From: Rhodospirillaceae bacterium Spongia-Bin9
GTDB taxonomy: Bacteria; Pseudomonadota; Alphaproteobacteria; Bin65
DNA length: 42,655 nucleotides
Assembly (NCBI GenBank): GCA_900197615.1
Contig: FZLR01000018.1
Span: forward strand, 1 to 42,655
Direction of reading: 5' to 3'
Below are positions 5,112 through 9,444 of the stretch, in pieces; position 1 is the stretch's first letter; each line of letters starts with the position of its first letter. The notes beneath the pieces were generated by a model. That model made no database searches, was not told the DNA's origin, and worked only from the letters and a program-made list of their open reading frames with translations. Both the position numbers and the translations under genes were made by a program.

Positions 5112-5239
5112 CCCGTTCGAGTGCGTATCCTGCACCCGAGGAGTAGGTACGGCGGACGGCAATGACCAACGGCGGCTTCGCAAACGGGCCGGAAACTTCG
5201 CGAACGGTGCACGAAACGCCGTTCGCGCTTCGCGAATGG
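5112..5239. promoter_or_regulatory. Cluster of CCGTTCG / CTTCGCGAACGG repeats, candidate LytTR sites
   Basis: Three imperfect direct repeats of CTTCGCRAAYGG start at 5176, 5196 and 5228. The 20- and 32-base spacings are about two and three helical turns. Further CCGTTCG copies occur on the plus strand near 5112 and 5219. Read on the other strand, the 5196 copy contains ACCGTTCGC, close to the LytTR half-site consensus [TA][AC][CA]GTTN[AG][TG]. The cluster spans the divergent promoter region and the first codons of the LytTR gene. Autoregulation is inferred. Confidence 0.4.
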
Positions 5240-6025
5240 TTCACCTGGCGGCGGATGCGCTGGTACCTGGCCTCGCTTGCCGTTGCGATTCTGGTCCTGG
5301 GCTATCTCGGCCCGTTCGGCACCTATGTCCGCATGCCGTTCGGCGAGCGAATGGCGTATTGGGCCTGCGCGATGGCCGGCAACTGGCTGGTCGCCCTGGC
5401 CTGCATCCTGCCGACGATGACACGCCTCAGCGGCCGCTTGCCGGCCATCGCCTGCGTCCTGATCGGCAGCCTGATCGCCGCCGTGCCGGGGACGCTGCTC
5501 ATCGTGGCCATCGAGTTGCTGTTCGCCCACGCCGTGCCCGAGACGCTGTGGACCGGCGAATTGTTCCTTGCCGTCGCCCTGATCCATCTCGCGATGGGCC
5601 TGATCGTCTGGGGCACCATCGAGCTGCCGATGCGGCAGGCCGGCGGCGCACCCTTCTCGGAGTTGCCGGAGGCGGGAGCGCCGGACGGCGATTCGGACGG
5701 CGGCACAGCCGCGGCGGCGCCCCTGCTGGAGCGGCTGCCGGCCGACCGGCGCGGCCGGCTGCTGCATCTCCAGATGCGCGACCACTATGTCGAGATTTAC
5801 ACCGACCGGGGATCGGACCTGGTGCTGATGCGCTTCGGCGATGCGCTGAAAGAGCTGGGCGGAACGGAAGGGATGCAGGTCCACCGCTCGCACTGGATCG
5901 CGCGCACGGCCCTGAAGAAGGTTTCGCGGCGCGCCGGGCGGACGGTCGCCCTTCTGGCGAACGGCGCCGAGGTGCCGGTCAGCCGCCGCTACGCCAGAGC
6001 GCTGCGCGACGCGGATTGGGTCTGA
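5162..6025 (+). CDS. Membrane-anchored LytTR-family transcriptional regulator
   Basis: A 287-residue protein. About residues 30-160 contain four hydrophobic helices. Residues about 190-285 form a LytTR DNA-binding domain, seen in RGRLLHLQMRDHYVEIYTD, LKELGGTEGMQVHRSHWI and ANGAEVPVSRRYA. There is no response-regulator receiver domain, so DNA binding is probably controlled directly by the membrane part. The gene is divergent from the DUF2141/carotenoid oxygenase pair with only 61 bases between start codons, which makes it the obvious candidate regulator of that pair. A GAGGAG at 5138-5143 is rather far (18 bases) from the ATG, so the true start is slightly uncertain. The ligand is unknown. Confidence 0.9.
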   Translation: MTNGGFANGPETSRTVHETPFALREWFTWRRMRWYLASLAVAILVLGYLGPFGTYVRMPFGERMAYWACAMAGNWLVALACILPTMTRLSGRLPAIACVLIGSLIAAVPGTLLIVAIELLFAHAVPETLWTGELFLAVALIHLAMGLIVWGTIELPMRQAGGAPFSELPEAGAPDGDSDGGTAAAAPLLERLPADRRGRLLHLQMRDHYVEIYTDRGSDLVLMRFGDALKELGGTEGMQVHRSHWIARTALKKVSRRAGRTVALLANGAEVPVSRRYARALRDADWV

Positions 6026-6241
6026 ACCTTATCCGCCGCCGATGGAATCGCGGGGAAGGCGGGCCGCCGCCTTGGTTGGCGGTGAGAAACAAGCCCAAGC
6101 AAGAGAACTGGGCGGCAGTGATCCCCGAAAGGATGCAGGCTAGGACATTCGCATGAATCAAGTTCATGACCAACTAGCGAAATGGCTTGATTTTTGGAAT
6201 TCGTCCATCCATTGCTTCGCTTTTGATGTAGAGGAAAGCCG

Positions 6242-7435
6242 ATGAGCCTCTTGGAACCGGTACTGGCCTTAGCAACCATATTGATCGCGGTAGTTTCACT
6301 GGTCGCCATCATTCGTCCTATAGCTCGCCTTGGTCTTGGGACACGCAAACGAGCCTTGTCCGCTCTTGCCCTATCCTTCGTCGGCTTCGTCGCGGTAGCA
6401 ACTTTGTTTTCCGACGCTTCACCGGAGCCGCAATCGTCGAAATTGCAACCAACGCCTGCGACCACCGAAAAACAGCCAAGAAAGACGTCTCAATCTGATA
6501 CTGACGCCGACCCCAGCCCGAGCGTGCCAGCCAGTGATCCAATTTCGGGAAAGCAGGAACAACAAATAGCGACTGTCAGACCGAATTCATCGGCCTTAGT
6601 GAACGATAGCGACAAACATGTGCAGGATCATAGTTTTTCCATCAAGATTTCCAGGAAAAACAAAGCGGGCATCTGGCTTGCGGTGAACACGACGTTGCCA
6701 GACCATATAGACATCCGAGTTTCTATAAGCCGCGCTATTGTTAGGATTGAAGACAAGAAGATAGTTACCGATTCTGGAATAATTATGGAACAAGTACAGG
6801 AAAAATCCCTGTTCTCCTATTTTAATGAGAGAGAACGGCTTGAACAATGGAAGTCGCCGCGCTTCATCCTGATTGATGATTTGAAATGGCTTCAAGATCT
6901 GAAGAAGAATTTAGATGAAAAGTCCGCCGCCGGTATTCCCTATAAAGTTACAAATATCGCTGATGAAATTGAAATATCAGCATACACATATCGGAATAGA
7001 ATTGGCAAACCTTACGAAAAGAGAAAATTCAAAGGCCAATCAGATAGATACTTCAATACCAGATGGGACAAAAAAAGCGAGATTCAACTGCCTCGTTCTT
7101 GGACTGGTCCCGGAGTGACTGTATTGGAGCCTTCGATTGTAAACGCTTACTACTTGGAAGTGAACAAGACATACATATTGATTAAGGACGAAACTCCCAT
7201 CACAGAATCTAGGCGCGCCGCTGACTACAAAAATATGGAAAAAATGTTCGAAGGAATTCGATATTTACCAGCTGGAACACCGATTCGCGTCTTGGAAGTT
7301 GTCGGACACAAGGAAACCCGACCCTACCATCCCTCACCCCACTATCGTGTATCACTTCCAGAGTATTCGGATGTACAAGGCTGGATTCTGAGTACTGCTT
7401 TATCGCCAGATGGCGTAAAAGTTGTCACACAATAG
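6242..7435 (+). CDS. Unknown membrane-anchored protein with C-terminal SH3-like segment
   Basis: Not recognised as a named family. The 397-residue product has two hydrophobic helices near the N-terminus (about residues 6-27 and 38-58). A long Pro/Ser/Thr/Gln-rich, probably disordered linker (about 60-115) is followed by a mixed alpha/beta region rich in Lys and Ile. The last 60 residues resemble a bacterial SH3 fold (AGTPIRVLEVVG, YRVSLPE, GWILSTAL). A strong ribosome site (GAGGAAA) precedes the ATG at 6242 by about 6 bases. The reading frame is intact, in contrast to the decayed neighbours 7538-8279 and 8310-8516. Composition and codon use mark it as foreign. A cell-envelope or surface role is possible from topology alone. 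Confidence 0.75.
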   Translation: MSLLEPVLALATILIAVVSLVAIIRPIARLGLGTRKRALSALALSFVGFVAVATLFSDASPEPQSSKLQPTPATTEKQPRKTSQSDTDADPSPSVPASDPISGKQEQQIATVRPNSSALVNDSDKHVQDHSFSIKISRKNKAGIWLAVNTTLPDHIDIRVSISRAIVRIEDKKIVTDSGIIMEQVQEKSLFSYFNERERLEQWKSPRFILIDDLKWLQDLKKNLDEKSAAGIPYKVTNIADEIEISAYTYRNRIGKPYEKRKFKGQSDRYFNTRWDKKSEIQLPRSWTGPGVTVLEPSIVNAYYLEVNKTYILIKDETPITESRRAADYKNMEKMFEGIRYLPAGTPIRVLEVVGHKETRPYHPSPHYRVSLPEYSDVQGWILSTALSPDGVKVVTQ

Positions 7436-7537
7436 ATGATCGATTCATGAGTGTCTGTCACAGCGGCATTTAGCCTCTATTCGACATCTATGGGCTCTAC
7501 AGGTAATTTATGCTTGGCGCGATCGCCGAGAGGACAT

Positions 7538-8279
7538 ATGGATTCCTTAAGAATTCCGACTTGGCCTGTTAATGGAATAAACAGGCGATTGCCGTATTTG
7601 ATCCACTAGCTGGATAGCTGCAAACCTGATATCGTGGCGCTTTGAAAAATCCATGGATCGGCGAAGAGTTGGCCTGCAAAAGAATTGAATGGCATCGGCT
7701 ACTGTGCTGTCACGTTTCCGCCAAGTTTCTGCTAAGATTTCGGCGTTGGTATCTTGATTCGAAGACCCTCGGTTCGGCCGAAAATCCTCCAATGCGGTTT
7801 GCCTGGTCGGTAACATGATGGCGCAAGGTTATTGACGGTCGAAGTTGGTGATCTGATTTTCTCATCAATCTATGTGCCGGTAAAAAACACGAATAAGAAT
7901 AGCCAGTTTACGCGACTTTACAAAGTATGAAGATTGTTATCTCGACGCAACAAAGCGAATCGTTTTATGCGGTGACTTCAATATGAATGAGAAGTCGGCA
8001 ACGAAAGAGGAGCGACAGATTTTGGAATAAGTAACGGATGTGGTATATAAAGATTTGTACCCTTGTTCTTGCCCCAAGGAGGATGGCTTTAGCTTTGGGA
8101 AAAGTCGCCTTGGGCCGGTCGACGCCGGACTTAATTGGGTTCTAGGTACACAAGAAATTGTCGACAGTGTTCGAGTTGTTTGGGTGGATTTGAAATATCG
8201 GGGATCGATTCCACGATTGATGCGTGAGGGGTGGACGCTGAGTGCGCCGCTTATTGTGAACTTGGAAAGATACGTTTGA
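7538..8279 (+). pseudogene. Decayed exodeoxyribonuclease III gene (xthA-like)
   Basis: Translation of one frame from an ATG at 7538, preceded by GAGAGGA, gives an XthA-like order of motifs. These are PTWPVNGINRRLPYLIH, LDSCKPDIVAL, KELNGIGYCAV, FGVGILIRRP, GDLIFSSIYVPV, IVLCGDFNM and APLIVNLE. The remnant is about 247 codons long; intact XthA is about 255-270. It is broken by in-frame stops at 7607 (TAG), 7643 (TGA), 7733 (TAA), 7811 (TAA) and 8028 (TAA), and by a frameshift between about 7919 and 7958. The Glu of the LQET motif is gone (a stop followed by K), and the terminal SDH catalytic motif reads TLS. The GDFN motif survives. The gene is certainly non-functional as read. The short open frames inside it are fragments. 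Confidence 0.85.
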
Positions 8280-8309
8280 GGTCTGGTTGGTTAAGAGTAG
8301 CGATTACGA

Positions 8310-8516
8310 CTAAAACCTCACCGGCGATGGGCGGTTTTCCACACTCCAATCGTAACCCATTGCCCTGGAGATGATGCTTCCGAGGCTCTCCATCCCCTCG
8401 GCTAAATGCGCATCGGCTACATGAATGTAGTCGGCCGTGGTCCGGTGCCGACGGTAGCCGAGCAGCTTGATGACCAGCGGCAGGTTGTCGCCGGCCCGAC
8501 TGGCGGCGGTGGTTTG
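8310..8516 (-). pseudogene. Tyrosine recombinase (phage integrase) C-terminal remnant
   Basis: Read on the minus strand, 68 codons give a typical integrase tail: GDNLPLVIKLLGYRRHRTT, then ADYIHVAD, then LGSIISRAM. The nucleophile Tyr in YIHVAD is present, but the usual His of LLGH is Tyr. The upstream HxLRHT box is missing: an in-frame TGA lies at 8517-8519 and no integrase-like sequence continues beyond it. About 80% of the gene is therefore absent. The position at the right edge of the low-GC segment fits a relic of the island's own integrase. Confidence 0.75.
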
Positions 8517-8669
8517 TCACGATCCTGCCCGCTACCGCATTGTCCGTCGTATATGGCATCGTACCAATCCCTTCGTTAGGGGAGCGCCCGGAATTTTCCG
8601 CCTGCATCCGCTGCCAGCGGGCGATCAGTCGCGCTGGCGCGGACCCCGTCGCACGCCTAATCTGTCGCG

Positions 8670-8867
8670 ATGAAGACCGTTCTCATCGTCCTTACCGTCA
8701 TCGCCCTGATCGGCGTTGTCGGGGTGCTGTTCACCGGCGTCATCCTGATGGGCCGCGGCGGCGAGGCCAATTCCCGATGGGGAAACAAGCTGATGCGCGC
8801 CAGGGTCGGCCTGCAACTGGTCGCGGTGGTCCTTCTGCTTCTGCTGTTTGCCGTCTATCAGAGTTAG
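8670..8867 (+). CDS. Small twin-transmembrane protein (HIG1-like)
   Basis: A 65-residue protein with two hydrophobic helices (about residues 3-27 and 46-63) joined by a short basic loop, NSRWGNKLMRARVGLQ. The LMRARVGLQ-hydrophobic arrangement matches the small twin-TM/HIG1-type proteins common in alphaproteobacteria. They resemble the mitochondrial hypoxia-induced family linked to respiratory complexes. It sits 7 bases upstream of the cobalamin adenosyltransferase and is probably in the same operon. Its function in bacteria is not established. Confidence 0.75.
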   Translation: MKTVLIVLTVIALIGVVGVLFTGVILMGRGGEANSRWGNKLMRARVGLQLVAVVLLLLLFAVYQS

Positions 8868-8874
8868 GCGCGCT

Positions 8875-9444
8875 ATGGTCAAACTGGACAAGATTTACAC
8901 CCGCGGCGGCGACAAGGGGCTGACCAGCCTGGGCAACGGCGCGCGGGTCCCGAAGCACGACGGCCGGGTCGCGGCCTATGGCTCTGTCGACGAATGCAAC
9001 AGCGTCCTCGGCCTGGCGCGGCGTCACGCGGCCGGCGACGAAACCGCCGATGCCCCGCTCGCCCGCATCCAGAACGACCTGTTCGATCTCGGCGCCGATC
9101 TGTGCACGCCGCACGAGGAAAATCCGAAATGGCCGCCCCTGCGCATGTCGCAGGCCCAGGTCGACCGGCTGGAGGCGGAGATCGACGCGATGAACGCGAA
9201 TATCCCGCCGCTCAAATCCTTCATCCTGCCCGGCGGCTCGGCGCTTTCCTCCTGGCTTCACCTTGCGCGCACCGTCGCCCGGCGCGCCGAGCGGGAGATG
9301 ACGGCGCTGGCCGAGGACGAGACGGTCAATCCGCTCGCCATCGCCTATATCAACCGGTTGTCCGACCATCTGTTCGTCATGGCGCGGGCGCACAACGACG
9401 ACGGCGCCGACGACGTGCTGTGGACGCCGGGGGAGAACCGTTAG
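8875..9444 (+). CDS. PduO-type cob(I)alamin adenosyltransferase
   Basis: A 189-residue enzyme that transfers the adenosyl group of ATP to cob(I)alamin, making coenzyme B12 for mutases such as methylmalonyl-CoA mutase. The N-terminal ATP-binding motif YTRGGDKGLT (residues 8-17) is intact, as are YGSVDECNSVLG and the C-terminal YINRLSDHLFVMAR helix that lines the active site. The ATG at 8875 follows the small membrane protein by 7 bases. Length is normal for the PduO/MMAB family. No mutase gene is in the window. The downstream CitE-like gene begins 116 bases later. Confidence 0.93.
   Translation: MVKLDKIYTRGGDKGLTSLGNGARVPKHDGRVAAYGSVDECNSVLGLARRHAAGDETADAPLARIQNDLFDLGADLCTPHEENPKWPPLRMSQAQVDRLEAEIDAMNANIPPLKSFILPGGSALSSWLHLARTVARRAEREMTALAEDETVNPLAIAYINRLSDHLFVMARAHNDDGADDVLWTPGENR

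Follow-up and report, generated by a model that had tools for sequence, protein, structure and literature searches.

A decayed exonuclease III-like gene in Rhodospirillaceae bacterium Spongia-Bin9 belongs to a distinct family with replaced active-site residues

Enzymes of the exonuclease III type (ExoIII, XthA) are covered by the profiles TIGR00633 and TIGR00195 and by solved structures such as 2voa, NExo (2jc4/6fk4) and the E. coli enzyme (1ako), in whose numbering catalytic positions are given here. The ExoIII fold is also found, with an altered active site, in the catabolite repression control protein of Pseudomonas, Crc (4jg3, 8bvj), which has no nuclease activity (PMC3662782). Crc retains Asp220 and His246 and has lost the Asp/Asn pair (PMC3662782), and it already provides one example of long selection after loss of the ExoIII catalytic residues.

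The locus described here, at positions 7538 to 8279 of a contig of 42,655 nucleotides (FZLR01000018.1, hereafter called the window), is a pseudogene of a distinct family of ExoIII-fold (EEP superfamily) proteins of about 250-270 amino acids. Members of this family resemble XthA in fold, length, collinear motifs and the presence of Tyr109, Asp151 and Asn153, but differ in having lysine in place of Glu34 and replacements of Asn7, Asp229 and His259. With family membership and decay observed, we infer the function, and consider it quite probable that the locus as a whole is best explained as the relic of a horizontally spread, nucleic-acid-binding family of ExoIII-fold pseudoenzymes.

ORF finding sees nothing in this region, yet it encodes a full-length ExoIII-like protein across two frames (Table 1), which are linked by a frameshift at approximately 7930-7950. 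The ATG is preceded by GAGAGG. An earlier note, made from the letters of the window alone, had proposed a broken exodeoxyribonuclease III gene of normal length, starting behind a ribosome site, and both points were borne out. With the stops written as X, TIGR00633 (xth) matched the first frame at E 1.2e-9 and the second at 0.0047, in register at profile positions 1-124 and 163-245 of 255, the scores of the two halves (38.1 and 16.5 bits) being below the curated cut-off of 99.05 bits. A blind search of the whole genome with the same profile recovered the locus at E 1.1e-8, and solved ExoIII enzymes were also matched by it. Pfam alone missed the pseudogene (E 0.0095), whereas NCBIfam detects it. 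The alignment to ExoIII relatives across the stops and both frames, which the note had suggested as a check, was collinear and full length; chance resemblance, which the note had also thought untenable, is therefore excluded.

Table 1 Features of the insertion and its flanks (positions in the window)
Feature	Position	Strand	Evidence or remarks
Left flank gene, 287-aa open frame, LytTR-like C-terminus by eye	5162..6025	+	Adjoins the empty site in congeners
Insertion, ~2.6 kb	6029..8590	.	Not present in G001-G005; edges accurate to within some tens of bases
Intact orphan open frame, 397 aa, inside the insertion	6242..7435	+	
ExoIII-like (EEP superfamily) pseudogene with ancestral active-site replacements	7538..8279	+	Profile matches, alignment, tree
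First frame of the pseudogene	7538..7936	+	Stops 7607 (TAG), 7643 (TGA), 7733 (TAA), 7811 (TAA), 7928 (TGA); family profile 109.7 bits
Second frame, past the frameshift	7947..8279	+	Internal stop 8028 (TAA), terminal stop 8277-8279 (TGA); CGDFN, WVDLKYRG...SAPLIVNL; family profile 50.4 bits
Truncated tyrosine integrase C-terminus (contains HRTTADY)	8313..8516	-	Near the right end of the insertion; weak profile matches
Right flank gene, 65-aa membrane protein	8670..8867	+	Conserved in congeners

The lesions amount to six in-frame stops, where the note had counted at least five, together with the one frameshift it had reported and small deletions, several motifs being deleted. As the genome assembly is in draft form, with 316 contigs, a sequencing or assembly error in a gene that is intact in the cell might be suspected. 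This would have to produce six stops of all three kinds, a frameshift and missing segments while leaving the neighbouring 397-aa frame of the AT-rich insert clean, and is very improbable. A functional split or recoded gene, depending on stop read-through or a programmed frameshift, has nothing specific in its favour and is harder still to credit, as all three stop codons occur inside the frame, several motifs are deleted and the other xth genes of the host read normally under translation table 11. A second copy of the family, in an Acidobacteria MAG (G397:C25:59460-60223), is also split across two frames, so that decay of the gene is recurrent.

The insertion carrying the pseudogene is foreign to its site, as in five congeners no more than about 30 to 260 bases separate the flanks; homology with these ends at 6023-6028 and is back by 8625, a shorter match beginning at about 8588. 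The core of the insert has a GC content of 0.45-0.49, compared with about 0.66 for the genome, and the integrase remnant is up to 64 % identical to open frames of 400-480 amino acids in the genus. The suggestion of the note that this is a foreign, AT-richer segment thus held. The insertion resembles the remnant of an integrase-borne island in its foreign composition, in the site being empty in relatives and in having a truncated integrase near one end, here a C-terminal remnant only, but differs in that neither a tRNA nor a direct-repeat attachment site (attL/attR) was found at its edges. The orphan frame (46 % GC, two membrane-like segments N-terminally) had no relatives in the genomes, family libraries or plasmids searched. 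Beyond the insertion, a cobalamin adenosyltransferase-like gene begins at 8875, after the membrane protein gene. The pseudogene came in with the foreign insertion and then decayed, or was already decaying on arrival.

In a first tree, of the read-through protein and the ExoIII proteins of the class, the pseudogene joined intact, divergent proteins of the congeners G002, G003 and G004 (support 99/98). These three proteins score 57-93 bits with TIGR00633, under its cut-off of 99.05. A profile made from them was run against 85,000 species genomes, with patterns that included LQK (PDIV[TA]LQK and SLLCGDFN were used) and with family seeds that had been found with the pseudogene itself. The scan yielded 23 loci (L070-L092), intact and of full length, in MAGs assigned to Alpha- and Gammaproteobacteria, Acidobacteriota and Gemmatimonadota, and an open frame spans the match in each of the 23. 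In all, the family is intact in the three congeners and at about 20 further loci. Two Afipia loci (L093/L094) considered as members were dropped, having partial matches of 28-30 % only. The combined tree supported the family, including the pseudogene, at 100/100; the pseudogene branch is long, so its placement within the family is unsure. By sequence, this K34 family stands apart from canonical XthA. No description of it was found in the largely non-subscription literature covered, on sponge xthA and on these bins, and the family is apparently so far undescribed.

The pseudogene scored 158.9 bits with the family profile and 85.2 bits with that of canonical ExoIII, which lists no match to the second half, and its tail, WVDLKYRGSIPRLMREGWTLSAPLIVNL, is that of the family (WVDLEYRKAVEGLRDCTWPQSAPVIVDL in L087). 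These results bear on the reading favoured in the note, namely that of a usual xthA repair gene, foreign in origin or redundant, which lost catalytic motifs as it decayed in place. That reading would account for a broken locus collinear with XthA and for the intact xthA elsewhere in the genome, which the note had proposed looking for and of which two were found, on C120 and C166. The pseudogene groups, however, with proteins that are already catalytically altered and shares with them SSIY, LCGDFN, a tail RxS.PRLMREGWTLSAP and, at the LQE site, a K behind the stop, all of which are absent from canonical XthA. A repair nuclease losing catalysis in place is therefore improbable. "Redundant xthA" is likewise the wrong description of a family whose members coexist with canonical-type xth.

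To compare residues, 22 intact family members were aligned with 21 canonical ExoIII proteins. Every catalytic residue was conserved in the canonical relatives (21/21). In the family, Glu34 was replaced by lysine in all 22 members, and none kept Asn7, Asp229 or His259; the Asp229 column holds His or Gln (H in 17/22) and the His259 column Ala or Ser. Tyr109, Asp151 and Asn153 were retained in 22/22, the retention of GDFN being partly by construction for members picked up through SLLCGDFN. Lys34 also occurs in members without an exact PDIV[TA]LQK (L077, L084-L086, L089-L092); several of these, such as L084, L085 and L091, were necessarily found via SLLCGDFN, so that the invariance of K34 is no search artefact. 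At positions 7, 34, 229 and 259 the pseudogene carries P, K, N and S, respectively; Y109, D151 and N153 are retained in it. The residues which the note had seen as two lost catalytic motifs are indeed altered, although at four positions (N7, E34, D229 and H259) and throughout the family. As intact, selected members lack the same catalytic residues, the catalytic loss predates decay and is ancestral; decay itself contributed only stops, a frameshift and certain deletions. Our own early assumption that the missing residues reflected decay was dropped after this alignment.

The intact genes are under purifying selection, with dN/dS between pairs of members of 0.11-0.40 (Nei-Gojobori; values at dS above 1 are rough). 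In the carrier genomes checked, a second, lower-scoring match of 120-190 bits was present, which is the range of canonical ExoIII, and family members thus appear to coexist with a canonical-type xth, typed by score range rather than by residues. Evidence on the fold comes from a model (AF2) of the intact relative L080 (pLDDT 87.4, pTM 0.89). Its best solved matches were ExoIII and APE enzymes, with TM of about 0.8, and it has the four-layer EEP fold; its confidence is low near the D229 loop, residues 202-210 having a pLDDT below 50. A basic pI, of 8-10, is found in most members. In L080, the family member is followed 0.6 kb downstream, at 7324-8241, by the gene of a further endonuclease/exonuclease/phosphatase-domain protein (306 aa).

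With Glu34, Asn7, Asp229 and His259 gone, ordinary metal-dependent hydrolysis by the family is unlikely, and lysine at a metal-ligand position together with the retained Tyr109, Asp151 and Asn153 suggests a metal-free phosphate pocket. From these residues we infer that the family consists of nucleic-acid-binding pseudoenzymes that do not cut. Lys34 would substitute for the metal used in catalysis, nucleic-acid phosphate would be gripped by a mostly basic surface and by the half of the pocket that is kept, and there would be no cutting without Asp229 and His259. Candidate targets are DNA ends, abasic sites or RNA, and binding might act by blocking or recruiting other factors. The intact members may, on the other hand, still be enzymes, for instance phosphatases, nucleases or phosphodiesterases, whose active site was rebuilt with Lys34 standing in for a metal ligand. 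Strong purifying selection and the presence of Tyr109, Asp151 and Asn153 in 22/22, beyond the strict need of a passive binder, speak for such chemistry, which Lys34 could support in altered form. Asp229 and His259 are, however, missing in all members, and no newly conserved acid or histidine was identified in their place, except for the H in the D229 column in 17/22, so that a rebuilt enzyme is considered unlikely, though not negligibly so. As regards the non-cutting pseudoenzymes, we tentatively propose, with not quite even expectation that all of its parts hold, that they form an accessory gene of sponge symbionts which moves as a single gene across phyla, is selected beside XthA and binds nucleic acid to regulate or protect it, the copy in the window being dead. 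The gene would be exchanged among bacteria of one habitat, probably sponges, and its loss from a single genome, as in the window, would be tolerated.

The family is similar to Crc in having an ExoIII fold with an altered active site, and the two kept opposite halves of that site. The profile score was 48 bits for Crc and 130 bits for ExoIII, and identity of the family with Crc was rejected on these scores. If the proposal is right, the family is a second, independent case beside Crc, with the other half of the active site kept, in at least three phyla and seemingly in one habitat; the ExoIII fold would then have been reused repeatedly as a non-cutting module, and sponge symbiosis would gain a common accessory gene that can be tested. 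It also carries a warning for annotation, because family members look like exodeoxyribonuclease III by profile and would pass as repair enzymes, and their decayed copies would pass for loss of DNA repair. The interest of the pseudogene in the window lies in the family of which it is a relic.

Many of the family MAGs can be traced to marine sponges, with a sponge origin documented for part of the bins only. The SB06xx bins are the Ircinia ramosa set, and the p16x bins, from a naming and accession series common with the jk18x bins, would also be sponge-derived. The jk18x bins are symbionts of Ircinia sponges (PMC9531527). Rhopaloeides odorabile is among the sponges of PMC8163846, and the RHO bins, as their names suggest, probably come from it. 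The family is likely to be confined to sponges.

The family gene tree crosses phyla, and the lineages have no neighbour genes in common besides the gene itself. The gene stands by itself among housekeeping or island genes that are unrelated from one locus to the next, among them those for citrate synthase, sulfatase, Apr proteins, an AbiEii-like protein, a Fic protein and an integrase. In the survey, the family was present in 3 of 385 alphaproteobacterial genomes, each belonging to the genus of the window, in 4 of 396 Acidobacteriota, and in one of 369 gammaproteobacterial genomes, which was the query genome itself. It was not found in phages and viral contigs, and the plasmids gave ordinary xth-level matches only (xth at <=34 % identity with the pseudogene as query). 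The family appears to spread horizontally. Some phylum assignments may be binning errors, as two cross-phylum pairs, L091/L092 and L080/L081, have kilobases of flanking sequence in common at 95-99.8 % identity. For L091 and L092, binned as Silicimonas and a gammaproteobacterium, the common region is about 10 kb, which points to either a binning error or a very recent transfer.

In G002 and G004 the family gene lies between a xanthine permease gene and aprA, at a site that is without the gene in four congeners. The dS between these two copies is 1.4, compared with 0.13-0.30 in the flanking genes, so that one copy was replaced or separately inserted. This junction is a small insertion hotspot: G003 has a different insert there (L098 840-1570; by eye, a methyltransferase-like membrane protein), G005 has one that is rich in repeats, and G000 and G001 have none. 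A dispersed palindromic intergenic repeat, CCCTTGTCACCCCGGA...TCCGGGGTGACAAGG, common to the congeners at the insertion site, is found in L072 (5400-5600) and in L099 (near 1180-1440).
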